Shown here: piece after piece, positions 53,012 to 64,000 of the stretch | Layout of the letters: each line of letters opens with the position of its first letter | Numbering within the stretch: the first letter of the stretch is position 1 | Assembly: GCF_002979865.1 (NCBI RefSeq) | Contig: NZ_PCPZ01000002.1 | Coordinates: 496,001 to 560,000 of the forward strand | Reading direction: 5' to 3' | Source of the DNA: Arthrobacter sp. MYb214 | Lineage (GTDB): Bacteria; Actinomycetota; Actinomycetes; Actinomycetales; Micrococcaceae | Length of the DNA stretch: 64,000 nucleotides | The notes under the pieces: generated by a model | What the model was told of the DNA's origin: nothing | The model's input: the letters and a program-made list of their open reading frames with translations, nothing else | Database searches by the model: none | Program-made: the position numbers and the translations under genes

Positions 53012-53893
53012 ATGAAGGACGTTGAACCAGTGGATATCGGGGGAACGAAACTGCAGCATCAGAATCTGCTGGTGACGCTGTACGGCCTGTATGGCGAATC
53101 GGCCAGTGGCTCTTTCCCTGTTTCTATCATCGTCGAGATGTTCGATGCCTTGGGTATCAGGTCGCAAGCAATCCGCTCCACCATTTCACGGTTGAAAAGC
53201 CGCGGCGTGCTAATTAACGAACGCGCAGGGAACGAATCCCAGTACCAGCTCTCCGCCGAGGTTATGGACAGCTTCCGGAAGGACGACCAACGGATCTTTG
53301 CTCCTTCGCGTTCAACCTCCGGGGACTCCTTGGTGCTGGCTATTTTTTCCGTACCCGAGAGCGAGCGGAATCGCCGGTACGAACTGCGCACCGAGCTGGC
53401 TAGCTTAGGGTTCGGGATGGTCTCCGGAGGAGTGGCCGTGGGGCCGCATCTGGCATTCGAGCAGGCTAAGGTCCGCTTGGATGCGCGAGGATTGTCCAAG
53501 TACGTCGAGTTCTTCAAGGCTGACTACATGTCCCCTGCCGATATCCGGGACAAGGTTGCCCAATGGTGGGATCTTGAAGCACTGGACCATCAGTACACCG
53601 ACTTCCTCCAGTTGTATGTCGGACGCTTAGGAACGTGGCAGCAACGGCTAGCTGATCCCGTCGAGTCAGCCGAGCAGCGCTCGGAACTGGAGCGGGCGGC
53701 TTTCGCCTTCTATATTCCGATGCTTACGCGCTGGCGGCGTTTCCCTTATCGGGATCCGAATTTGCCCTTCGAATACCTGCCTGATGGGTGGAAAGCTCCG
53801 CAGGCCAAGAAGACCTTCCTGGCGTTGCACGCGCTGTTGTCCCCGCATGCGGAGCTATACGCGAGTCGGCTACTCGGCTCGCGCGTCGACTAG
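53012..53893 (+). CDS. PaaX-family transcriptional regulator
   Basis: The 293-residue protein has the PaaX layout. An N-terminal winged helix (about 18-85) carries LLVTLYGLYGESASG and RSQAIRSTISRLKSRGVL. The central PaaX domain has VLAIFSVPESERNRRYELRTELASLGFGMVSGGVAVGP. The C-terminal domain has YTDFLQLY and YIPMLTRWRRFPYRDPNLPFEYLP. PaaX represses phenylacetate catabolism by sensing phenylacetyl-CoA, and relatives control other aromatic-acid pathways. No paa catabolic genes are adjacent, so the target is probably the nearby island. Its 3' end overlaps the convergent hydrolase gene by 24 bases. Confidence 0.9.
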   Translation: MKDVEPVDIGGTKLQHQNLLVTLYGLYGESASGSFPVSIIVEMFDALGIRSQAIRSTISRLKSRGVLINERAGNESQYQLSAEVMDSFRKDDQRIFAPSRSTSGDSLVLAIFSVPESERNRRYELRTELASLGFGMVSGGVAVGPHLAFEQAKVRLDARGLSKYVEFFKADYMSPADIRDKVAQWWDLEALDHQYTDFLQLYVGRLGTWQQRLADPVESAEQRSELERAAFAFYIPMLTRWRRFPYRDPNLPFEYLPDGWKAPQAKKTFLALHALLSPHAELYASRLLGSRVD

Positions 53894-54631
53894 TACCTGC
53901 CGCATCCAGGTCTGCACGGCCTGCCAATGATGCTGCTGCGGGTCGATGATTTCAAAGTGGTCCAGCGACCGGTGGATCATTTGTTCCGGCAGAACGTGTC
54001 CGGCCAGGGAATCCAGGTATTCCCGCGTGTGCTCCAGCGGTACCCGGTCGTCGTTGAACCCGTGGACCAAGAGCGTTGGCACCGAAGGCGGTGGGGCCTG
54101 GATTGGCGAAGCATCGTGGTAGATTGCCGGAATCCCGGCCGGAGAATCGCCGAAATATTCCATTGCTGCACCATCGCCGAGGGATTCTGCATGCACCTTG
54201 GAAGCATCGGTGACTGGAGCGAGGCCTACCACGGCATCGGCGAAATTGGAGTTCAGCAGCGCCAATTGACCGCCGACCGAATGTCCGATAAGAATAGCTG
54301 CCTCGGATTGGCCCTGGTATCGCAACGTGCTGCGCACGAGCTGGATTGCCGCGGCCACATCGAAAGATGGGGTGGGCCACGGGTGGTCCGGACCGCGCCG
54401 GTATTCCACGTTGGCCACGCTCCAGCCAGAGCGCAGCAAATCGTCAGCCATCGGTTGCATCACGCTGGCGGTGATCCGCTGGCGCCAGTAGCCGCCGTGG
54501 ACCAGGACCGCAGTGCCCAGGGAAGGCTGTTTGAACGGGTGCGCCAGGATGAAATGCTGGTCGGGATGATCCCCGTACTTGAGCAACTCGGACTCTCGCG
54601 TATTTTGCGGCACTGCGCTTTTTCCTTCCAT
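53870..54631 (-). CDS. Alpha/beta hydrolase, arylformamidase-like
   Basis: ATG 54631 gives 253 residues; the longer frame to 54787 runs into the cupin gene region. AVLVHGGYWRQRITASVMQ supplies the oxyanion HGGYWR motif, ILIGHSVGGQLALL the nucleophile Ser, and LLVHGFNDDRVPLEHT and HFEIID the Asp and His. The HGGYWR and GHSxGG combination is characteristic of kynurenine formamidase-type (BNA7-like) esterases. The likely role is hydrolysis of an N-formyl or aryl ester substrate. Its 3' end overlaps paaX-like by 24 bases. Confidence 0.8.
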   Translation of the reverse strand: MEGKSAVPQNTRESELLKYGDHPDQHFILAHPFKQPSLGTAVLVHGGYWRQRITASVMQPMADDLLRSGWSVANVEYRRGPDHPWPTPSFDVAAAIQLVRSTLRYQGQSEAAILIGHSVGGQLALLNSNFADAVVGLAPVTDASKVHAESLGDGAAMEYFGDSPAGIPAIYHDASPIQAPPPSVPTLLVHGFNDDRVPLEHTREYLDSLAGHVLPEQMIHRSLDHFEIIDPQQHHWQAVQTWMRQVLVDARAE

Positions 54632-54686
54632 CCTGCGGCGGCCGGCAGGAGTATCCCTGCCGGCCACGTAGTAATTTCTGCCAATG

Positions 54687-55175
54687 CTAGTCTGCGCCGG
54701 GTACGGATCCCGGTGGCAGGAAGTCCACGTCACGCAGTGCTGAGAGGCGGACAACTTCCTCCGGGTCAGACAAGTTGTGAAGCTCATCGAAGAGCGTGGA
54801 CAGTTGTCCCGAAGGGCTTACCCAAAAGAGCGATTTGCCCGGTGCGCCATCCTTGACGTAGTAGGCGTGAGGAAGTCCCATGGGCATGCGGACGGTATCG
54901 CCAGGCCCGGCCTTGAACCATTCGCCGTCCAGGTACAGGGTGTAAGTGCCTTCCATTATGTAAATGTGCTCATCTTGCTTAGGGTGCACGTGCGGAGGCA
55001 CACCGGTTCCAGTGGGATCAAGGGAAAGCCATGCAAAGCTGCTGGAACTCTCGACCTTGGAGAGATAGGTGTGGCCGAGGACATTCCACGTCTTGTTGCC
55101 CATTGATTCACTGGCCAAAGTTATGCCCTTGGGCAGATCGCCCAGAATGATTTCTTGGCCTTGCTGCTGTTCCAT
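54687..55175 (-). CDS. Cupin domain protein
   Basis: The 162-residue protein starts at ATG 55175 with AAGGAG upstream. Metal-binding cupin motif 1 is PPHVHPKQDEHIYIMEGTYTLY (two His, Glu-type ligand set) and motif 2 contains GLPHAYYV. Such single cupins include dioxygenases acting on quercetin-like or aromatic compounds and regulatory binding proteins. It lies 55 bases upstream of the arylformamidase-like gene in the same direction, so the two are probably an operon. Confidence 0.82.
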   Translation of the reverse strand: MEQQQGQEIILGDLPKGITLASESMGNKTWNVLGHTYLSKVESSSSFAWLSLDPTGTGVPPHVHPKQDEHIYIMEGTYTLYLDGEWFKAGPGDTVRMPMGLPHAYYVKDGAPGKSLFWVSPSGQLSTLFDELHNLSDPEEVVRLSALRDVDFLPPGSVPGAD

Positions 55176-55378
55176 GATGACTCCTTAACGGGTAGATGGC
55201 TGGTGCGTCCAGCATGGCATGAATCACATTAGATATGCAATAGGTCTTGCGATCGCAAAATTCGGTGTATAGGATTTCTATCACTTCGGCCTATGCTGCC
55301 GGACTCTTCACTACCCTCGCAATTCACGCATCGCGGTCCAAGGGACCCGTTGCTGCACTCTACGAGTAAGGCACCAAT

Positions 55379-56437
55379 GTGAATACCACTCAGGTAAAAG
55401 GAATGAGCGTCTACACGCTTGGCACCGGAGGCGGCCCGATCGTTTCCAGTTCCCGTGCTGGCACCAGCACGGCGATCAGGGTCGATGGGGCAACCTACGT
55501 GATTGACTGCGGCATGGGAAGCATCCGCAATTACCGGTCGCATGCCGAATGGGGCGAATTGCGCGCGGTGCTGCTGACCCATCACCACTCGGACCACATC
55601 TACGATCTCGGCGCCTATCTGGTGACCGGGTGGCAGGTCCCGGGGGAGTCTTTCGCCCGGCCTATCCAAGTTTTCGGCCCTGGACGTCCCAATCGCATCC
55701 CCGCCCTTGGCCCGGAGCACGAGCAGCAGATCGCTTCGCGCGTCGCCGAGCGGGAAATGACCAGCACCGAAGAAATCGTCGATGCGCTGCTGGACAAGGT
55801 CTTCTCCTCCGACGTGTTGATCCGCATGGCCGATGAAGGCCGCGACGAACCCCACGAATGGATCCAGTCGCAGAACATCCAGATCCCCGAGGCATCCGGG
55901 GCCTGCGCAGTTGAAAACCGCCACCCGGAAATGGAGCCCTTTGAGATCTACCGAGATGAGCTGGTGGCGATCTCCGCGATTCTGGTCGACCACCGCTTGT
56001 GCTTCCCGGCATTCGCCTTCCGGATCGACTCGCGCTACGGTTCCGTCGTGGTCTCCGGAGACACCGCCTACTCCGAGAACTGCATCAGGCTCGCCCGCGG
56101 AGCTGACTTGCTGCTGCATGAGGTCATCGATCTGCCTGGCATCCTGGCGACATTCCCGGACGGCCCGACGCGCGATGGCATCGAAGTGCATTTGCGTGAA
56201 TCGCACACGCCGTACAGCGAGGTGGGCAAGGTCGCCGCGAAAGCCGAAGTCGGCGCGCTGGTGCTGCATCACATCGTTCCCAACACCCCCGGTGCCGCTG
56301 ATCTGGAAGCTATGCTGGAGACCGCACGCGGTGATTTCGCGGGGAATGTATCCATCGCCGAGGACAATGACGTCTTCAGCATCGGCCCGGCGGCGCTGGA
56401 ACTCTCCGCGGCCGATTCCAAGGGGAGCTTGGTATGA
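55379..56437 (+). CDS. Metallo-beta-lactamase-fold hydrolase
   Basis: GTG 55379 with GTAAGG upstream gives 352 residues. The zinc motif THHHSDHIYDLG, an early GTGGGP/TYVIDCGMG sheet, GSVVVSGDTAYSENC and the late LVLHHIVPNTPG are typical of the RNase Z/arylsulfatase-like branch. It may hydrolyse a lactone, phosphodiester or sulfate ester. It overlaps the downstream MFS gene in an ATGA, so import and hydrolysis are coupled. Confidence 0.88.
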   Translation: MNTTQVKGMSVYTLGTGGGPIVSSSRAGTSTAIRVDGATYVIDCGMGSIRNYRSHAEWGELRAVLLTHHHSDHIYDLGAYLVTGWQVPGESFARPIQVFGPGRPNRIPALGPEHEQQIASRVAEREMTSTEEIVDALLDKVFSSDVLIRMADEGRDEPHEWIQSQNIQIPEASGACAVENRHPEMEPFEIYRDELVAISAILVDHRLCFPAFAFRIDSRYGSVVVSGDTAYSENCIRLARGADLLLHEVIDLPGILATFPDGPTRDGIEVHLRESHTPYSEVGKVAAKAEVGALVLHHIVPNTPGAADLEAMLETARGDFAGNVSIAEDNDVFSIGPAALELSAADSKGSLV

Positions 56438-57909
56438 GTACGACACAGAATCTCGCGGACCACACCTTGCGTGCGGCCATCGCCAACGGCAAAATGAACC
56501 GGCGCGCCTGGATGGTGACCGGCATGCTGGTACTCTTCCAGATCGTGAACTTCGCCGACAAAGCTGTCCTGGGGCTCGTGGCTGATCCCGCCATGCGCGA
56601 ACTCGGGTTGACTGCCGGTCAGTTCGGCTTCATCGGCAGCGCCTTCTTCTTCCTCTTCGCCATTGTCGGCGTTATTGTCGGCTTCCTGGCCGGAAAGGTA
56701 TCCACCCGCTGGATCTTGCTGACCATGGGCATTGCCTGGGCAGTCCTGCAGTTCCCGATGCTCTTCGGCGGAGGCGCGGCAATCCTGCTGGTCACACGCA
56801 TCCTGCTGGGTGGAGCCGAGGGGCCGGCGACCCCCATTTCGCTGCAGCATGCCCACGGCTGGTTCAATGCGAAGGAACGTGGGCTGCCCAGCAGCGTCAT
56901 CGCTGCCGGTTCAACCCTGGGGCCGATCCTCGCGGCTCCTGCCCTTGCATGGATCATCGCCAACCCGGCCCTGGGCTGGCGCTGGGCCTTCGGTTTCCTG
57001 GGGATCTTCGGGCTGCTCTGGAGCGTAGCGTGGCTGCTTCTGGGCCGCGACGGCCCGTACAGCCATTCCACGGCGGGCAAGGCACAGGCGAAAGCCGGTG
57101 CCATCTCGTTGGCGGAGGACCAGCAGCAGGCTGGGCAGAAACCGGAACCGGTCGCCGAATTCGACCTGCAGGGCAAGGGGAGCATTGCGGATTCCTCCGA
57201 TCTGCTGAAAATCGTGCCGATTCGACGAGTCCTGGGCTCGTGGATGTTCGTGGCAGCGGTGCTCGCAGGTGCCGGCTGCTTCTGGGCGCAGGGTTTCTTG
57301 ACCACGTGGTCCCCGAAATATCTGGGATCCGTCGTTGCCCTGACACCGGAAATGATCGGTTTGGTCTCCACCTTCCCCTGGGTGATCGGCGCTATCGCGC
57401 TGCTGGTTTTGGGCTTCGGCTCCCGCTACTTGATGAAGCGCGGCGTGACGGTTCGCTGGGCCATGGGCGCCCTGTTCGGCGCAACGTTGCTGATTTCCGG
57501 GGTCTGCTTCTCGATCCTGCCCTTCCTCTCCGGCTACGCCGCCGTGGCGATGCTGACTCTCGGTGCCGGTACGGCAATGATCTATCCCTTGGCTCCCACG
57601 GCAATCGCCTTCAGCGTCTGCTCCAGGCAGCGCGCGGCCCTCATGGCCACGCTCACTGGACTGGCTTCGGTGGGCGGCGTGGTCGCTCCCGCAATGGTCG
57701 GTGGCCTGATGGACAGCGCGGGCTATATTCCCAGCCCTAAGGGCGTGGCTGACTCGGCGGAGATGGCCGAGTTGCTGGCTCAGGGCATGAATGCCTCATT
57801 CGGGATGATCGGAATCTACCTGGTTGTTGTTGGCATCTTCTGCGTCTTGATGCTCAATCCGGACCGGACAGCGCGCAAGCTGCAGACCAGCTTCACGTTC
57901 ACCGGCTAG
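56434..57909 (+). CDS. MFS transporter (anion:cation symporter-like)
   Basis: The 491-residue carrier has twelve helices with a charged central loop of about 50 residues (GKAQAKAGAISLAEDQQQAG and after). The sequence FADKAVLGLVADPAMRELGLTAGQFGFIGSAFFFLFAI, LLGGAEGPATPISLQHAHGWF and a later ATLTGLASVGGVVAPAMVGGLMDSAG are typical of the ACS family, which moves organic acids and aromatic acids. ATGA overlap with the upstream hydrolase gene. Confidence 0.88.
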   Translation: MSTTQNLADHTLRAAIANGKMNRRAWMVTGMLVLFQIVNFADKAVLGLVADPAMRELGLTAGQFGFIGSAFFFLFAIVGVIVGFLAGKVSTRWILLTMGIAWAVLQFPMLFGGGAAILLVTRILLGGAEGPATPISLQHAHGWFNAKERGLPSSVIAAGSTLGPILAAPALAWIIANPALGWRWAFGFLGIFGLLWSVAWLLLGRDGPYSHSTAGKAQAKAGAISLAEDQQQAGQKPEPVAEFDLQGKGSIADSSDLLKIVPIRRVLGSWMFVAAVLAGAGCFWAQGFLTTWSPKYLGSVVALTPEMIGLVSTFPWVIGAIALLVLGFGSRYLMKRGVTVRWAMGALFGATLLISGVCFSILPFLSGYAAVAMLTLGAGTAMIYPLAPTAIAFSVCSRQRAALMATLTGLASVGGVVAPAMVGGLMDSAGYIPSPKGVADSAEMAELLAQGMNASFGMIGIYLVVVGIFCVLMLNPDRTARKLQTSFTFTG

Positions 57910-57938
57910 CCAAGATCGCCCCGGATCGAGCTGCAGGA

Positions 57939-57970
57939 TCCCATCGGCCAAGTCGCAACGGCCGATGGGA
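57939..57970 (+). terminator. Terminator of the hydrolase-MFS operon
   Basis: TCCCATCGGCC pairs perfectly with GGCCGATGGGA (57939-57949, 57960-57970), 29 bases after the MFS stop. Confidence 0.8.
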
Positions 57971-57996
57971 TTCTGCTGCACATGGCGATCCGCGGC

Positions 57997-58176
57997 CTAG
58001 CTCCTATGGATGCCGGTGGGAGTGATGGCGCAGGAAGCATGGCCGCACTCAGGGCAGGCATTCATGGAATGCGCTGCAATGCCTGCATGGCTGTTTCGCC
58101 TTTTGGAAAATCCCTTTGCATTCCACCCGGCCATCGTTTCCCCGGTGCCAGCGCACTTGCATTTCGCAAGTGCCAT
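57997..58176 (-). CDS. Small Cys-rich protein candidate (possible zinc ribbon)
   Basis: A 59-codon frame begins at ATG 58176 and encodes a CKC pair near residue 6 and a CPECGHASC stretch near residue 43, with KGFSKRRNSHAGI between. Two Cys pairs at this spacing could bind zinc. No ribosome binding site is evident and it lies downstream of another gene's terminator, so expression is uncertain. Confidence 0.35.
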   Translation of the reverse strand: MALAKCKCAGTGETMAGWNAKGFSKRRNSHAGIAAHSMNACPECGHASCAITPTGIHRS

Positions 58177-58227
58177 CTTGCCGGCAAGCAGACTCTTGGC
58201 AGGCCCGGGGGTGCTGGAAAAGGATAA

Positions 58228-58264
58228 AACCGTGGCACACCGCTGTGCGCGGTGTGCCACGGTT
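58228..58264 (-). terminator. Intrinsic terminator of the AAHS-type transporter gene
   Basis: AACCGTGGCACACCGC and GCGGTGTGCCACGGTT form a perfect 16-bp stem with a 5-base loop. Read on the minus strand the right flank is TTATCCTTTT, a T-rich tail. Confidence 0.93.
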
Positions 58265-58300
58265 CGGGACGTTCGTGCTGGAAGGTGCGCAGAGCCAGGG

Positions 58301-59644
58301 CTAATCGGACGCGAAGGCCTGTTTGGCCTCGGCAGATCGGGCGGCATCTGGTTTGATGCGTGGTGGAATCATCGCCACGGAAATGGCGGCGACTACGCCG
58401 ACGATGGCGAAGAATACGAAATTGAACTCGAAGCTGATGCCCGAAGCCGCGATCCAGCCGCCGATGATGGGGCCGGAGATGGCGCCGATGCGGGCGAAGG
58501 ACAATGCCCAGCCCGTGGCCGTGCCGCGCTGCGCGGCCGGGTAGTAATCGGCAATGTATCCGGTGAGAACCAGCGACGTGGAAATCGAGCCGATGCCGGC
58601 GAAGGCCACGAAGAACAGATTGACCAGCATAGTATTGGGGAACATCAGCAGGAGGATGCCTCCCGCACCGAGCAGGTAGAAAATCACCAGAATGGTCTTC
58701 TGCCCGTACTTGTCGGCGAGGAAGCCCAGGGCCAGTCCGCCGGCGGCTGAGGCGAGGGAGAAGACCAGCAGGAATGTTAGCGAGGAACCGAGGTTGTACC
58801 CTGCGCTGCGCATGATCTGCGGCAGCCAGGTATTCAAGCCGTAGACCAGGACCATGCCGCAGAATAGCGAGATCCAGAAGAAGATGGTTGATCGCAAGTA
58901 CGTTGCGGAGAACATGGAAGCCATGACCTGGCGCCAGGGGGCCTTGCCGGTGCGAACCGGTGGCGCCACGGGCTCGTAATCGGGGATGCTGTGCCGGGCG
59001 GCCAGTGCTTTGGCTTCGCTGATCCGCCCCTTGGATACCAGATATTCAAGGGATTCGGGAAGCATCCAGGCAACTAAGGGAAGTAGAACTACAGGTAATG
59101 CGCCCACCGCGATAACCCCGCGCCAACCTATCGCGGGCAGAAGCGACATGGCGACCAAGGCAGCGGCGACGATTCCCAGGGAATAGCCTGAGTACATGAT
59201 GCCGTAGTTAAGTGAGCGTTTCTTGGGTGGCGAATACTCGATGGTCAGCGCGGCGGCCACCGGGATGATGCCGCCCATACCCAGTCCGCCGATCAGCCTG
59301 AAGAGGCCGAATATCTCGGGAGTAGGAGCTAGCGCGGCACCGGCTTGGGTGATTGTGAAGACTAGCATGGCCAGCAGGAGCATGCGCTTACGGCCGATGA
59401 TGTCGCTGAGCGTGCCGATGAACAGTGCGCCGAAGAGCATGCCCACCAACGCGTAGGCTCCGAGGCCGCCGAGCTCCATGGGACTCAGCGACCATTCCTT
59501 GTATTCGGCCAATGCCGGGAGCACTGCACCGAGCACGCCGACGTCGTAGCCTTCGGCCAGGATGGCCAGCCAGCAGGCGAAGAGCACCATTGAGGTGGTT
59601 CGTTTGGGGATTTTCCAATCCGCGGCTGCGGGGGATTTTGGCAT
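58301..59644 (-). CDS. MFS transporter, aromatic-acid:H+ symporter (AAHS) type
   Basis: The 447-residue carrier starts at ATG 59644 after AAGGAG. It resembles PcaK/BenK-type symporters: VLFACWLAILAEGYDVGVLGAVLPAL near residue 20 contains the conserved Asp of helix 1, and ALFIGTLSDIIGRKRMLL is MFS motif A. The 12-helix pattern is complete. These carriers import benzoate, 4-hydroxybenzoate, protocatechuate or similar aromatic acids. It is divergent from the thioesterase-like gene, which strengthens an aromatic-acid role for this island. Confidence 0.9.
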   Translation of the reverse strand: MPKSPAAADWKIPKRTTSMVLFACWLAILAEGYDVGVLGAVLPALAEYKEWSLSPMELGGLGAYALVGMLFGALFIGTLSDIIGRKRMLLLAMLVFTITQAGAALAPTPEIFGLFRLIGGLGMGGIIPVAAALTIEYSPPKKRSLNYGIMYSGYSLGIVAAALVAMSLLPAIGWRGVIAVGALPVVLLPLVAWMLPESLEYLVSKGRISEAKALAARHSIPDYEPVAPPVRTGKAPWRQVMASMFSATYLRSTIFFWISLFCGMVLVYGLNTWLPQIMRSAGYNLGSSLTFLLVFSLASAAGGLALGFLADKYGQKTILVIFYLLGAGGILLLMFPNTMLVNLFFVAFAGIGSISTSLVLTGYIADYYPAAQRGTATGWALSFARIGAISGPIIGGWIAASGISFEFNFVFFAIVGVVAAISVAMIPPRIKPDAARSAEAKQAFASD

Positions 59645-59757
59645 TTGTTCAATCTCCTTGTGTGGGTAGGGCGGAGTTCTTGGAACACCAATAGGATTAT
59701 CACGTTAAAGTGACGTGCGTTACAATAGCTATACACTTTTTATTTAGGGGGATCTTG

Positions 59758-60237
59758 ATGCCTGCATTCGCGGGAATGGACGAATCCGGGCAGTTGTTGC
59801 AGCAGCTCGCCGCAGACTTCATCGCGTCGGGAATCGCAGGAACGGCGTTGGAGCGAACCATTGAATGGGTTGATACCGATGCTGCGGGGCATCATCATAA
59901 TTCAGCCATCTTGCGCTTCGTCGAGGCGGCCGAAGCCAAACTGTTTCGCGAGGCTGGCGCGGAGTCCTACTTCTCCATCTCGCCACGAGTCCGCCATGAG
60001 GTCGACTATCGGGCCAAGCTGTATTTCGGCCAAGCGGTGACCACCGCGATTCGCGTGGAGAAGGTCGGGGCCAGTTCGATGTCGTTCGGATTCAAGGTCT
60101 GGGGGCATGCGCACCAAGGGCGCGGGTTCGCGCTGGCCGCTGAAGGCCGTTTCGTGACAGTGTGCGTTCCAGTTGGCGGTGAGTCATCTGCCCCCTGGCC
60201 CCGTGAAATCCTCGCTGGCATTGATGCTGGTTCCTGA
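59758..60237 (+). CDS. Acyl-CoA thioesterase, hotdog fold (4-hydroxybenzoyl-CoA type)
   Basis: ATG 59758 after GGGGG gives 159 residues. ERTIEWVDTDAAGHHHNSAILRFVEAAEAKLF contains the Asp-x-Asp-x-x-Gly-His motif of 4HBT-family thioesterases, where the first Asp is catalytic; RVRHEVDYRAKLYFG follows. It likely removes CoA from an aryl- or acyl-CoA. It is divergent from the AAHS transporter, sharing a 113-base promoter region. Confidence 0.85.
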   Translation: MPAFAGMDESGQLLQQLAADFIASGIAGTALERTIEWVDTDAAGHHHNSAILRFVEAAEAKLFREAGAESYFSISPRVRHEVDYRAKLYFGQAVTTAIRVEKVGASSMSFGFKVWGHAHQGRGFALAAEGRFVTVCVPVGGESSAPWPREILAGIDAGS

Positions 60238-60446
60238 GCGCGGCACCGCGCTCCGTGCGAGCTGGTGGATATATGCGCGAGCCAGATTTGCGGAACTAGG
60301 TCTTCGCCCCTGGTTCTCCTTCGGGTGGCCTGTTGGCTAGCAGAGGTGGTGCTGGTAGATTGAAGCTAATTCCGCGAATGTGACGATCGTCAGGATCTCT
60401 CTATCGTCGGAATGTGTCCTGGACCGTCTCTGCCCAAGGAGAAACA

Positions 60447-61262
60447 ATGCCTGCTGCCGAAGAAACTTGCACGAGCGCGATATTGTCCGCTCTGGCCTCC
60501 GGGACTGTCCAAGTCCATGACCTGACTGCCCCGCTGTCGGACAGGACTCCAACCTTAGTACTGCCCGATCCGTTCTCGAACCTCATTGATTTCAGTCTCG
60601 AAGAGGTCTCGGCCTACAACGAGCCCGGACCATACTGGAAGCACCACAATATCCATACTGGTGAGCACATCGGAACGCATATAGATGCGCCGATCCACTG
60701 GATTTCGGGACGAGGGGGCAAGGACGTGTCGCAGATTGATCCGCAACGCCTGGTAGGTCCGGCCGTCGTGTTGGACTTCAGATCCTTAGCAGCAGATGAT
60801 CCGGATGTTCTCATCGATGTGCACCATTTGGAAACGTGGCAATCGGAATATGGGCGGTTTCCTTCCAACGCGTGGCTGCTTTTCCGCACCGGATGGGAGC
60901 AATACGGTGATGACAAGACAGCTTTCCTGAATGTCGATGCCACCGGATCGCATACTCCCGGGTTTACTGCGGAGTGCGCCAGATACATCGCCGAGAAGCT
61001 GGACATTTCCGGCATCGGCGTGGAAACGGTGGGGATCGATTCCGGCAATGCTGGAGCACTGGAGCCGCCATTCCCCATGCATTACTTCCTGCTCGGTGCA
61101 GACAAATACGGGATCACCTCGCTGAAGAACTTGGACAAGCTGCCCGTGTTCGGAGCGATGCTAGTGGTTGCCCCTCTGCCCATAGTTGGCGGTACCGGCG
61201 CACCGACCCGGGTGCTGGCATTAGCGCCCCAAAACACCAAGAAAATGGAGGCACAATCGTGA
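60447..61262 (+). CDS. Cyclase-family hydrolase (isatin hydrolase/kynurenine formamidase fold)
   Basis: The start is ATG 60447 with AAGGAG six bases upstream; an in-frame GTG at 60414 would place that site inside the gene. The 271-residue protein has the metal motif HTGEHIGTHIDAPIHW (H-x-G-T-H-x-D-x-P-x-H), with LLFRTGWEQYG, and GIDSGNAGALEP. Known members hydrolyse isatin, N-formylkynurenine or related cyclic amides. Its stop overlaps the start of a ThDP enzyme (GTGA), so the two steps are probably consecutive. Confidence 0.88.
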   Translation: MPAAEETCTSAILSALASGTVQVHDLTAPLSDRTPTLVLPDPFSNLIDFSLEEVSAYNEPGPYWKHHNIHTGEHIGTHIDAPIHWISGRGGKDVSQIDPQRLVGPAVVLDFRSLAADDPDVLIDVHHLETWQSEYGRFPSNAWLLFRTGWEQYGDDKTAFLNVDATGSHTPGFTAECARYIAEKLDISGIGVETVGIDSGNAGALEPPFPMHYFLLGADKYGITSLKNLDKLPVFGAMLVVAPLPIVGGTGAPTRVLALAPQNTKKMEAQS

Positions 61263-62911
61263 ACGTTGCTGAACTGGTCGGCAAGACGCTGGCAAACTTG
61301 GGCGTAGGGCACGCTTTCGGCGTGGTGGGAAGCGGGAACTTTGATGTCACGAATGCACTGATTGCCAACGGGGTGCCATATACCGCAGCGCGGCATGAGG
61401 GCGGCGCAGCAACGATGGCCGATGCCTACTCACGGACCAGCGGCCAGATCGGCGTGGTCTCGGTGCACCAGGGGTGCGGCCTGACCAACGCGGCCACCGG
61501 CATTGGAGAAGCCGCCAAGTCACGCACCCCGATGATCGTGCTGGCCGCCGAAGCCGCCCCGAGCGCCGTGTATTCGAACTTCGCCATGGACCAGGGCTCC
61601 TTCTCAACCTCCGTCTACGCCGTCTCCGAACGAATCCACAGCGCCCGCACGGCAGTGGCCGATACAGTTCGCGCCTACCGCAGAGCAGTGAACGACCGGC
61701 GGACGGTTGTACTGAACCTGCCATTGAACATCCAAGGGCTCGAAGCTCCGGAATCCCCGGTGGCAGCCGAGGTGGTTCCGGCGGAGCCGGTCCGCCCCTC
61801 GCGTGCCGCGGTGCGAGCGCTGGCGGTACTGATCGAAAATGCCCGGCGCCCGGTGTTCGTCGCAGGGCGCGGCGGACGCGGGGCCAAGGCCGAAATCCTG
61901 GCGCTGGCCCGGCACAGCGGGGCGCTGGTGGCGACCTCGGCGGTGGCCAAGGGCCTGTTCAACGACGAGGAATTCAGTCTCGGGATCTCCGGCGGGTTCT
62001 CGTCGCCGCTGGCCGCCGAGTTGATTGCTGGAGCAGATCTGATTGTGGGCTTTGGCTGCGCGCTGAACATGTGGACCATGCGCCACGGACGGCTCATTTC
62101 CGAGGGCACCAAGGTAGTGCAGGTGGACCTGGAAGAGTCCGCCCTGGGGGCGAACCGGCGCATCGACTTGGGCGTGATCGGCGACTCGGCGCAAAGCGCA
62201 CGCGATGCGCTGGAATATCTTGAAACGCAGAAGATGCCGGCGCGCGAAGGCTACCGCACCTCCGCGGTGAGCCAGCAGATCGCCGAGGGGGCCAACTGGA
62301 GCCAGGTAGCCTACCGGGACCTGTCCACAGACGACCGCATCGATCCGCGAACTCTGACCAAGTCGCTGGATGAGCTGCTGCCGGCCGAGCGCATCGTCAG
62401 CGTGGACTCGGGCAACTTCATGGGATACCCGAGCCAGTTTCTCGCCGTTCCAGACGAGCACGGTTTCTGCTTTACCCAGGCGTTCCAGGCGATCGGCCTG
62501 GGGCTCTACACGGCCATCGGAGCGGCTTTGGCGCAGCCCGGGCGCTTGCCGGTGCTCGGCACCGGAGACGGCGGATTCCACATGGCCATCGCCGAACTGG
62601 ATACCGCGGTTCGGCTGAAGCTGCCAATGGTGTGCATCGTCTACAACGATGCCGCCTACGGGGCGGAGGTACATCATTTCGGCGATACGGGTACGGCACC
62701 GAATATGGACTCGGTGACCTTCCCTGACACCGATTTCGCAGCCATCGGCCGCGGTTTCGGAGCCGATGGCATCACGGTGCGCAAGCTGGAGGATCTTGAC
62801 GCGGTAGCCAGCTGGCTCGGCTCGGATCCCACGGGGCCGCTGGTCATCGACGCGAAAATCGCTTCGGACGGCGGTGCGTGGTGGCTAGCGGAGGCATTCA
62901 AGGGGCACTAG
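61259..62911 (+). CDS. Thiamine diphosphate-dependent enzyme (benzoylformate decarboxylase/acetolactate synthase-like)
   Basis: GTG 61259 overlaps the cyclase stop. The 550-residue protein has the three ThDP-fold domains: an N-terminal part with the conserved Glu in ARHEGGAATMADAYSRTSG, a middle domain (about 185-330), and the cofactor motif GTGDGGFHM..VYNDAAYG. This superfamily includes decarboxylases of aryl-2-oxo acids and carboligases. After isatin hydrolysis the product isatinate is an aryl-2-oxo acid, so decarboxylation to 2-aminobenzaldehyde is a plausible but unproven reaction. Its stop codon shares a CTAG with the convergent permease gene. Confidence 0.88.
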   Translation: MNVAELVGKTLANLGVGHAFGVVGSGNFDVTNALIANGVPYTAARHEGGAATMADAYSRTSGQIGVVSVHQGCGLTNAATGIGEAAKSRTPMIVLAAEAAPSAVYSNFAMDQGSFSTSVYAVSERIHSARTAVADTVRAYRRAVNDRRTVVLNLPLNIQGLEAPESPVAAEVVPAEPVRPSRAAVRALAVLIENARRPVFVAGRGGRGAKAEILALARHSGALVATSAVAKGLFNDEEFSLGISGGFSSPLAAELIAGADLIVGFGCALNMWTMRHGRLISEGTKVVQVDLEESALGANRRIDLGVIGDSAQSARDALEYLETQKMPAREGYRTSAVSQQIAEGANWSQVAYRDLSTDDRIDPRTLTKSLDELLPAERIVSVDSGNFMGYPSQFLAVPDEHGFCFTQAFQAIGLGLYTAIGAALAQPGRLPVLGTGDGGFHMAIAELDTAVRLKLPMVCIVYNDAAYGAEVHHFGDTGTAPNMDSVTFPDTDFAAIGRGFGADGITVRKLEDLDAVASWLGSDPTGPLVIDAKIASDGGAWWLAEAFKGH

Positions 62912-64000
62912 CCCAGCCCTGGAACCGCGATTGCTGGTGGGTGGCCCCGGTGCGGCGCATGGTGCGCTGCGCCGGGGCTCGCTTGCACCTTCAAGGCGTC
63001 GCTGATCTTTTCAGGCTCGCGCGGCTGGCTTGAGCCGCCAGTCTTCTCATTCCCGGTGCCTGGACCTGCCTGTGCCAGCTTCATGCGCTTGCGCATCAGG
63101 AAGTACGGGGCAGAGACGGTCAAGGCGAAGGGAATGCCGAACAGCAACGTCATGGAGAATTGCTCGGTGAACAAGGTCGTGACCAGCAACGCGGCCATCA
63201 GCTGCGCCCCGGCCGCGGATCCAGCGGGATAGTACGGCAGGCGGTATTTAAGCGGTGCTGCACTGCGCCGATGGGAACGGCGGAAGAACAAGTGCGTGAT
63301 GAAGATCAGCATCCAGGCCATCATTGCGCCGAACATCGACAGTGCCATCATTATTGTGAAACCGGATTCTGGATTCGATGCGTAGATGATGGCGGCCACG
63401 GCGATTCCGCCAGCAGAGAGCAGCAGGGCGTTGACCGGCGCGCCGTTCTTCTTCAATTTACCCAAGCTGCTCGGAGCCTGCCCGGCGCGGGATAGAGAGA
63501 ACATCATTCGCGTGGAGATGTACAGCTGCGAGTTCATGGCGGAGAGTGCGGCGATGATGACCACGAAATTGAGAATGGAATCGGCAAACGGGATGCCGAT
63601 CACCTGCATCACCGTGACGAACGGGCTGTCGCCTTCGAGGATCTCGCTGACGGGTGCGATGGCAAGGATCAGCGACAGGGTCAGGATGCAGAAGAGGAAG
63701 AGCCTGAACCAGGTCACCTTGAAGGCCTTCTTCACTGCGACTTCGGGATCTCTTGCCTCACCGGCTGCGACGGCGATCATTTCGATGCTCAGGTAGGAGA
63801 AGATCGCCACGACAACGGCAAACCAGACACCTTGGGCCCCGCCCATGAAGAATCCGGATTCCGCGGTGTAGTTCTGGAAACCGAAATCGTTGCCCCGCTG
63901 GCCGAAGACCAGATAGGCGGCAAGCAGGATGAACGCGGCAATAGCGAATACCTTGGTGGCGGAGAACCAGTATTCCAGTGTTCCGAAGGCCTTGACATTG
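62908..64000 (-). CDS. APC-family amino acid permease (partial, runs off the window)
   Basis: The frame is open from 62908 to the end of the window, so the N-terminal part is missing. The visible 363 or so residues contain about nine helices, with YLSIEMIAVAAGEARDPEVAVKKAF (the conserved loop after helix 6 of the amino acid transporters), NSQLYISTRMMFSLSRAGQAP and MFGAMMAWMLIFITHLFFRR. This is the AAT/GABA permease branch (proline, aromatic amino acids, GABA). The C-terminal 60 residues are polar and low-complexity. It could bring in an aromatic amino acid or amine for the adjacent island. Confidence 0.9.
   Translation of the reverse strand, partial: NVKAFGTLEYWFSATKVFAIAAFILLAAYLVFGQRGNDFGFQNYTAESGFFMGGAQGVWFAVVVAIFSYLSIEMIAVAAGEARDPEVAVKKAFKVTWFRLFLFCILTLSLILAIAPVSEILEGDSPFVTVMQVIGIPFADSILNFVVIIAALSAMNSQLYISTRMMFSLSRAGQAPSSLGKLKKNGAPVNALLLSAGGIAVAAIIYASNPESGFTIMMALSMFGAMMAWMLIFITHLFFRRSHRRSAAPLKYRLPYYPAGSAAGAQLMAALLVTTLFTEQFSMTLLFGIPFALTVSAPYFLMRKRMKLAQAGPGTGNEKTGGSSQPREPEKISDALKVQASPGAAHHAPHRGHPPAIAVPGLG

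Follow-up and report, generated by a model that had tools for sequence, protein, structure and literature searches.

The systems closest to the locus described here are the isatin hydrolases A and B of Labrenzia aggregata and Ralstonia solanacearum (PMC6117287), the coenzyme A (CoA) pathway of anthranilate degradation in Arthrobacter sp. Rue61a and Azoarcus evansii (PMC3534580), the iad auxin locus of Variovorax paradoxus and Bradyrhizobium (PMC9613470, PMC12633357), the benzoylformate decarboxylase of Pseudomonas putida and the quercetin 2,3-dioxygenase YxaG of Bacillus subtilis. The locus itself is from Arthrobacter sp. MYb214 and pairs a cyclase-family metal hydrolase with a thiamine diphosphate (ThDP)-dependent enzyme of the decarboxylase/lyase class. 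It was analysed within a window of 64,000 nucleotides (contig NZ_PCPZ01000002.1, hereafter C12, positions 496001-560000, of a 3.7 Mb genome); positions given without a contig are those of the window.

We consider it probable that the right half of the locus (approximately 58301-62911) and an operon at C12:560577-568440 belong to a single route that leads from isatin or isatinate into central metabolism, and that the left half (53012-57909) is a separate module delivering anthranilate. This reading is built on homologies, residues, gene pairing and co-occurrence. The initial annotation had treated 53012-62911 as a single island: its units are real, but they amount to two modules plus the CoA operon, and its right edge was drawn too short.

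The cyclase is a predicted isatin hydrolase

The cyclase gene (60447-61262, plus strand) encodes the only PF04199 protein that we found in its genome (131 bits; families were assigned with Pfam and NCBIfam profiles). The four closest solved proteins are all isatin hydrolases A or B (5nnb, 5nna, 5nmp and 4j0n; E 1e-62 to 1e-70), and the cyclase shares with these enzymes the fold family, the His/Asp ligands, the shuttle residues and the length. In LaIHA the manganese (Mn) ligands are His69, His73 and Asp75, and the proton shuttle consists of His79, Asp193 and His207 (PMC6117287, a different passage of which gives His203 where His207 is meant). These six residues align with H85, H89, D91, H95, D209 and H223 of the cyclase, numbered from the GTG at 60414, and the conservation of each is 97% or higher across 74 aligned sequences, that of the window included (drawn from 79 loci, leaving out cyclases with stops or unclear letters). 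The resemblance to isatin hydrolases noted in the initial annotation is thus borne out by the closest solved proteins and by most of the catalytic residues, and the cyclase is most likely an isatin hydrolase, judging from homology and catalytic residues.

One residue speaks against this assignment: the further ligand Gln219 of LaIHA corresponds to Thr235, which is conserved in the family of the cyclase. The same place is taken by Ala224 in the active isoform LaIHB (PMC6117287), so that Gln219 does not define the isatin hydrolase family as a whole. A second difference from the known isatin hydrolases is the partnership with a decarboxylase-class ThDP enzyme. Formylkynurenine had also been put forward as a substrate, but the cyclase scores 29.8 bits against a cut-off of 223 for the kynurenine formamidase KynB (TIGR03035), and we rejected that identity.

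The cyclase is paired with a ThDP enzyme

The gene of the ThDP enzyme (61259-62911, plus strand; three TPP domains) starts with a GTG that overlaps the TGA of the cyclase as GTGA (61259-61262). To survey its relatives we used 84 loci, comprising 80 of 114 hits, the titles of which all name actinobacteria, and four plasmid records (Rhodococcus, two Deinococcus and Agrobacterium); an unannotated Nonomuraea plasmid record and weaker plasmid hits were left out. At 79 of the 84 loci the ThDP gene has a cyclase gene in its neighbourhood, which at 76 of them is at most 300 bp away on the same strand. The nearest named relatives of the ThDP gene are those of Glutamicibacter soli and G. protophormiae (82%); in the latter, the cyclase and ThDP genes are parted by about 2.8 kb holding three genes. 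The host accordingly resembles Glutamicibacter. Arthrobacter sp. MYb229 keeps the gene order seen here.

Like the benzoylformate decarboxylase of P. putida (1bfd), the enzyme has a three-domain ThDP fold, and its S25, E47 and H70, invariant in 37 aligned sequences including that of the window, fall on S26, E47 and H70 in HHalign. It differs in its low identity (24% in HHalign), in its score for the benzoylformate decarboxylase family PRK07092 (146 bits, cut-off 493), and in an invariant Trp272 where the decarboxylase has His281. His281 is the proton-relay residue of benzoylformate decarboxylase. In Foldseek, the structure model (pLDDT 88) has as top hits HKA synthase, 2-hydroxyacyl-CoA lyase/synthase, acetolactate synthase and pyruvate oxidase, about equal; the fold resembles synthases, lyases and oxidases alike and therefore cannot choose between decarboxylation and ligation. 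The gene pairing, together with the links to 2-aminobenzoyl-CoA genes given below, supports the earlier proposal that the ThDP enzyme processes the product of the cyclase. We found no report tying a ThDP decarboxylase to isatin or isatinate in titles and abstract beginnings, a search that covered few subscription journals. The parts are of known kinds, and the pairing of an isatin hydrolase with a decarboxylase-class ThDP enzyme would be a variant for which no report was found.

A CoA operon lies just beyond the window

The absence of a visible ring-cleavage dioxygenase other than the cupin had been remarked upon in the initial annotation. It need not indicate a gap in the pathway: genes of a lower pathway, including a CoA-dependent dearomatising monooxygenase/reductase, start at contig position 560577, 0.6 kb beyond the end of the window. 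The gene of this operon nearest the window (C12:560577-562988, minus strand) encodes a bifunctional monooxygenase/reductase of the 2-aminobenzoyl-CoA type; it passes as a two-part flavoprotein with 1215 bits against a cut-off of 1078 for NF006101, a family named salicylyl-CoA 5-hydroxylase/oxidoreductase, and its 2-aminobenzoyl-CoA substrate is a prediction. It is followed by an aryl-CoA ligase (563037-564605, minus strand), nearest to the benzoate-CoA ligase family (340 bits, under the cut-off of 375), by a TesB-like thioesterase, a cupin and an FAH-family hydrolase (all on the minus strand), by RidA (plus strand), and by a second PaaX-family gene, PaaX2 (567613-568440).

By enzyme type, this set resembles the anthranilate CoA pathway of Rue61a and A. 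evansii, which shares the aryl-CoA ligase, the 2-aminobenzoyl-CoA monooxygenase/reductase and PaaX-related regulators. For Rue61a, enzyme assays confirmed two anthranilate-CoA ligases, the monooxygenase/reductase is proposed to act next, and after growth on anthranilate a CoA ester (C7H8O4) was detected that fits a deaminated product (PMC3534580). By analogy the ring would be attacked after CoA activation, and no ring-cleavage dioxygenase would be needed. The Rue61a and A. evansii route is fed by quinaldine, whereas here the feed would be the isatin pair and the left module.

Together, these genes suggest the following route. An aromatic-acid-type carrier of the major facilitator superfamily (MFS) may import the acid, and the cyclase, with its Mn site, would open the isatin lactam to isatinate (2-aminophenylglyoxylate). 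On this 2-oxo acid the ThDP enzyme, a predicted isatinate decarboxylase, would most likely perform a plain decarboxylation to 2-aminobenzaldehyde and CO2. An aldehyde dehydrogenase encoded elsewhere may then produce anthranilate, which the CoA ligase would convert to 2-aminobenzoyl-CoA for dearomatisation by the monooxygenase/reductase, after which RidA could take off the amino group and the FAH-type hydrolase open the ring.

The association of the two parts of the route is visible across genomes. Among 197 genomes of the same family, 61 have an orthologue of the ThDP enzyme, and these include 35 of the 39 that have the monooxygenase/reductase (Fisher p 6e-18, in a test that, like the other co-occurrence tests below, treats the genomes as independent though they are related, which counts against the strength of the association). 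In 25 of these 35 genomes the two genes are at most 20 kb apart. The 39 include two matches under the family cut-off (G038, G028). ThDP orthologues were counted at E <=2.5e-200, plus the split gene of G105, while weaker hits and the fragmentary orthologues of G088 and G148 stayed uncounted; the orthologues come from a list of 295 genomes limited to handles up to G196, assumed to be the 197.

Neighbours of the pair in other genomes

Neighbour sets were judged within the fetched flanks of the 84 loci, with score limits that we set. The CoA operon (monooxygenase/reductase, or ligase plus RidA) is present at 22 loci. A block resembling StyA1/StyA2B stands beside the pair at 12, of which 9 also have the CoA operon; StyA is a styrene/indole monooxygenase, and the StyA-like proteins of these loci score under the NCBIfam cut-off for it. 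The association extends to another phylum: a plasmid of Deinococcus psychrotolerans carries the cyclase, the ThDP enzyme, RidA, an AMP-ligase and the monooxygenase/reductase together (on a plasmid of Deinococcus sp. KNUC1210, the pair occurs without the CoA genes). A homologue of isatin hydrolase, the ThDP enzyme and 2-aminobenzoyl-CoA genes thus occur together in many actinobacteria and in one Deinococcus, in some strains with the StyA-like block. A 2018 review of indole degradation treats the standing of isatin as a genuine intermediate as an unsettled question and calls for functional study of isatin hydrolase and anthranilate genes (PMC6221969). Because those genes stand together, that question could be addressed with a few enzyme assays.

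The survey also bears on another explanation, in which the pair acts on some other cyclic 2-oxo amide or lactone and the anthranilate link reflects a regional clustering of catabolic genes. In the fetched flanks, the CoA operon, the StyA-like block and a thiolase set are all missing from 47 of the 84 loci, which thus have no anthranilate-, indole- or thiolase-type neighbours, so the ThDP family may have other substrates; the cyclase fold is moreover known to serve several. The genome of MYb214 itself yielded no StyA1 relative, in a search without positive control. These observations weigh against an isatin route, but the cyclase residues match those of isatin hydrolases, the link to anthranilate CoA genes is found in two phyla and the StyA-like block adjoins the pair, and we regard other substrates in MYb214 as improbable.

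The thiolase set was found at 12 loci, never with the CoA operon or the StyA-like block. There, thiolase and AMP-ligase genes lie near the pair, at some loci with an ABC transporter, an aldehyde dehydrogenase or a cupin resembling 3-hydroxyanthranilate dioxygenase, in what looks like an actinobacterial auxin-type pathway. In Asanoa (4 loci) and Herbidospora (5 loci) the conserved neighbours of the pair match none of the anthranilate, StyA and thiolase sets, and other substrates are possible for these pairs.

A different ThDP enzyme in comparable loci

Of 57 plasmid records that contain a homologue of the cyclase, we hand-picked 11, all without an adjacent ThDP enzyme of the kind found here. 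In 6 of them (Tsukamurella, Shinella, Caballeronia, Sagittula, Alloyangia and Paracoccus), genes for the alpha and beta subunits of indolepyruvate:ferredoxin oxidoreductase lie in the neighbourhood of the cyclase, at distances from less than 1 kb to about 10 kb. This oxidoreductase is itself a ThDP enzyme, expected to yield a CoA thioester. In Alloyangia, one stretch holds AraC, SDR, StyA, StyB, the monooxygenase/reductase, RidA, FAH, cupin, cyclase and oxidoreductase genes. The oxidoreductase genes were found at none of the 84 ThDP loci; there was no IadA/IadB-type match in the window or in the downstream stretch, and a query of the MYb214 genome with the alpha subunit of Tsukamurella, run without a positive control, gave none either. 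If our reading is correct, two unrelated ThDP enzymes would serve one step. In the Paracoccus stretch there is also a remote ThDP match, at 25% identity, and a gene annotated as xsc.

The same two subunits, IadA and IadB, are carried by iad loci (PMC9613470). When the iad region with IadI, annotated as a kynurenine formamidase, was overexpressed, C8H7NO3 and C7H7NO accumulated (PMC12633357); by formula, these fit isatinate and 2-aminobenzaldehyde. On our reading, the iad locus and ours share an amide hydrolase, annotated there as a kynurenine formamidase, for a C8 oxindole-type intermediate (C8H7NO2 in iad), an anthranilate product and a ThDP-type enzyme in the locus. They differ in the class of the latter (decarboxylase/lyase here, IadA/IadB there) and in their regulators (PaaX here, MarR in iad), and no Rieske (IadDE) or thiolase gene was found among the island and downstream genes scanned, the only part of the genome searched for Rieske genes. 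If the isatin route is real, it offers candidate chemistry for the last steps of the iad auxin pathway, for which the relevant section of PMC12633357 gives no gene.

Several observations weaken this parallel. The oxidoreductase was not seen in 5 of the 11 fetched stretches (Labrenzia, Sulfitobacter, Ruegeria and two Azospirillum, one of which ends at the record edge), and IadA/IadB-type subunits are also paired with iac loci, whose pathway runs to catechol and not via isatin (PMC9613470). The iadC-K2 region of Variovorax alone restored anthranilate, which weakens a strict need for the oxidoreductase in iad, and IadI acts after C8H7NO2, a formula that is not that of isatin (PMC12633357).

The outcome of the ThDP step can be weighed against this background. 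Within the same pathway, the enzyme could transfer or oxidise the acyl-ThDP, giving anthranilate or a ligated product and releasing no aldehyde. The replacement of His281 by Trp272 and the Foldseek preference for synthases and lyases make carboligation or another outcome possible. A scan of ten island genes and six downstream genes found no aldehyde dehydrogenase, and an oxidoreductase-type ThDP enzyme, from which a CoA thioester is expected, is encoded at 6 of the 11 analogous loci. On the other side, Ser25, Glu47 and His70 match benzoylformate decarboxylase, C7H7NO, the formula of the aldehyde, is reported in the iad pathway (PMC12633357), and aldehyde dehydrogenases lie near 9 of the 84 relatives. 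We judge the aldehyde-free outcome unlikely and retain decarboxylation as the preferred reading of this step.

The left module may deliver anthranilate

The left half comprises a PaaX-family regulator, a hydrolase, a cupin, a metallo-beta-lactamase (MBL)-fold hydrolase and an MFS transporter. This order is kept in 14 fetched genomes (PaaX1 in its position in 14 of 14; in one genome the hydrolase, absent from the gene call, was located by tblastn). Since this unit and the cyclase-ThDP pair are each kept in other genomes, the grouping of the genes is not due to chance. Orthologues of the MBL protein (at least 69% identity) occur in 16 of the 197 genomes, that of MYb214 included. Each of these genomes also carries the CoA gene (p 3e-13), as well as the genes of the ThDP enzyme and of tryptophan dioxygenase; the module is at most 20 kb from the CoA gene in 11 and from the ThDP gene in 9. 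A single operon of module and pair was rejected, because the module is apart from the pair in 5 of the 14 fetched stretches and has its own conserved promoter block. Presumably under separate regulation, the module would probably convert an N-formyl or N-acyl precursor to anthranilate for the same CoA operon.

PaaX1 (53012-53893, plus strand) has three PaaX Pfam domains over the cut-off but misses that of the equivalog TIGR02277 (130 bits, cut-off 265), and thus belongs to the PaaX family without being the phenylacetate PaaX itself. The alpha/beta hydrolase (53870-54631, minus strand; BD-FAE domain; start at an ATG at about 54631) is a candidate N-formyl- or N-acylanthranilate amidase. Its earlier description as arylformamidase-like is weakly supported: HGGYWR (including the HGGYW motif), GHSVGG, Asp194 and His225 are invariant in 10 aligned sequences, the window's included, and the kynurenine formamidases 4e15 and 4e11 are ranked second and third by Foldseek, but similar scores are reached by many esterases, and the model, built from three sequences, is poor (pLDDT 68). 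A plasmid search for this hydrolase gave distant matches only.

The cupin (54687-55175, minus strand) is a candidate metal dioxygenase. Its H62, H64, E69 and H103 are the same in all 14 aligned sequences, which average 90% identity, and its best solved match is quercetin 2,3-dioxygenase (E 1e-13). It has the HxH...E...H metal set of quercetinases, the 3-His-1-Glu set of YxaG, but unlike the bicupin YxaG it is a single domain of 162 aa, and it stands in another operon. These genes would fit a sequence in which oxygenolytic cleavage yields N-formyl- or N-acylanthranilate and the amide is then hydrolysed. A more specific proposal is that the ThDP enzyme is the founding member of an isatinate decarboxylase family, which takes the place that an oxidoreductase-type ThDP enzyme has in the isatin pathways of proteobacteria, and that the left module is a second entry to anthranilate, unrelated to the first, in which the single-domain metal cupin cleaves indoxyl or a 3-hydroxy-4-quinolone to N-formyl- or N-acylanthranilate, which the formamidase-like hydrolase then opens; taken as a whole, this proposal is tentative and rather unlikely.

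The MBL-fold hydrolase (55379-56437, plus strand; Lactamase_B) has an arylsulfatase as best solved match (E 1e-20), and a role as sulfatase is only a lead. Two paralogues with 37-39% identity to it are encoded on contig C14 (305598-306602 and 309080-310093). The ACS-like MFS transporter gene that overlaps it (56434-57909, plus strand; MFS_1) is assigned to the module by synteny; its best NCBIfam subfamily is 2A0114 (150 bits, under the cut-off of 395).

The resemblance of the hydrolase to kynurenine formamidase raises the question of whether the whole island serves a kynurenine route, in which the hydrolase or the cyclase would be the N-formylkynurenine formamidase and anthranilate released by kynureninase would feed the CoA operon. 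The genome does encode tryptophan 2,3-dioxygenase and kynureninase, along with a single cyclase-family protein, and the left module co-occurs with tryptophan dioxygenase in 16 of 16 genomes (p 1.5e-4). Yet the kynurenine genes are elsewhere (near 91 kb of C12 and 56 kb of C18), tryptophan dioxygenase is found in 117 of the 197 genomes against 16 for the module, and the cyclase is far under the KynB cut-off; a kynurenine island is thus, in our view, very unlikely, and we keep to two modules sharing the CoA operon.

Tryptophan 2,3-dioxygenase is encoded at C12:91046-91840 and kynureninase at C18:55923-57119, the latter next to an amino-acid permease that resembles the permease at 62908 (57%). 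Anthranilate could also come from kynurenine. In three genomes, which belong to a single genus, the left module and tryptophan dioxygenase are separated by 6-7 kb.

Promoter blocks

The divergent cupin/MBL promoter contains a palindromic block, TATGCAATAGGTNTTGCGATCGCAA (55231-55258, without strand), the core of which is present in 18 of 18 aligned promoters (two from one genome) and which is a candidate operator of PaaX1. The window holds no second high-scoring site besides its own overlapping reverse, and a scan of the downstream stretch gave none over 8 bits. Another conserved block lies in the divergent FAH/RidA promoter (C12:567009-567058; alignment of 23 loci, weakest in three of them) and is a candidate operator of PaaX2. 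A match to it precedes the cyclase (60375) with 10.9 bits, inside the range of eight shuffled maxima (6.0 to 14.9), and its left half occurs at 59711, in the promoter between carrier and thioesterase, with 11.1 bits, slightly more than the highest of eight shuffles (maxima -0.5 to 10.5). Shuffled sequences measured 20 kb, and the motif scan covered 64 kb. Since these scores lie within or barely above those of shuffles, co-regulation by a common operator is not shown, and the half site in the thioesterase promoter is a weak hint of it.

Reality of the genes and remaining features

The nine genes named in the initial annotation are all open frames at the positions it gave, and the GTGA coupling of cyclase and ThDP enzyme is present as described. 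Inspection of the DNA refined the start of the cyclase to the ATG at 60447, preceded by AAGGAG, and that of the thioesterase to the ATG at 59758. The island genes score as coding under a codon model trained on the ThDP and cyclase families, a support that is circular for these two genes because of that training; the lowest scores are those of the cupin (20) and the thioesterase (18).

Three further genes accompany the pair. An amino-acid permease gene (62908-63999, minus strand; AA_permease) lies between it and the CoA operon and extends beyond the window to contig position 560368. The MFS carrier at 58301-59644 (minus strand) is related to aromatic acid/H+ symporters (TIGR00895, 305 bits, under the cut-off of 419), and its relatives are close to 16 of the 84 ThDP loci. 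The 4HBT/hotdog thioesterase (59758-60237, plus strand; PF13279), a candidate aryl-CoA thioesterase, has relatives close to 14 of the 84 loci and, in two stretches, beside a CoA operon that is not accompanied by the cyclase-ThDP pair.

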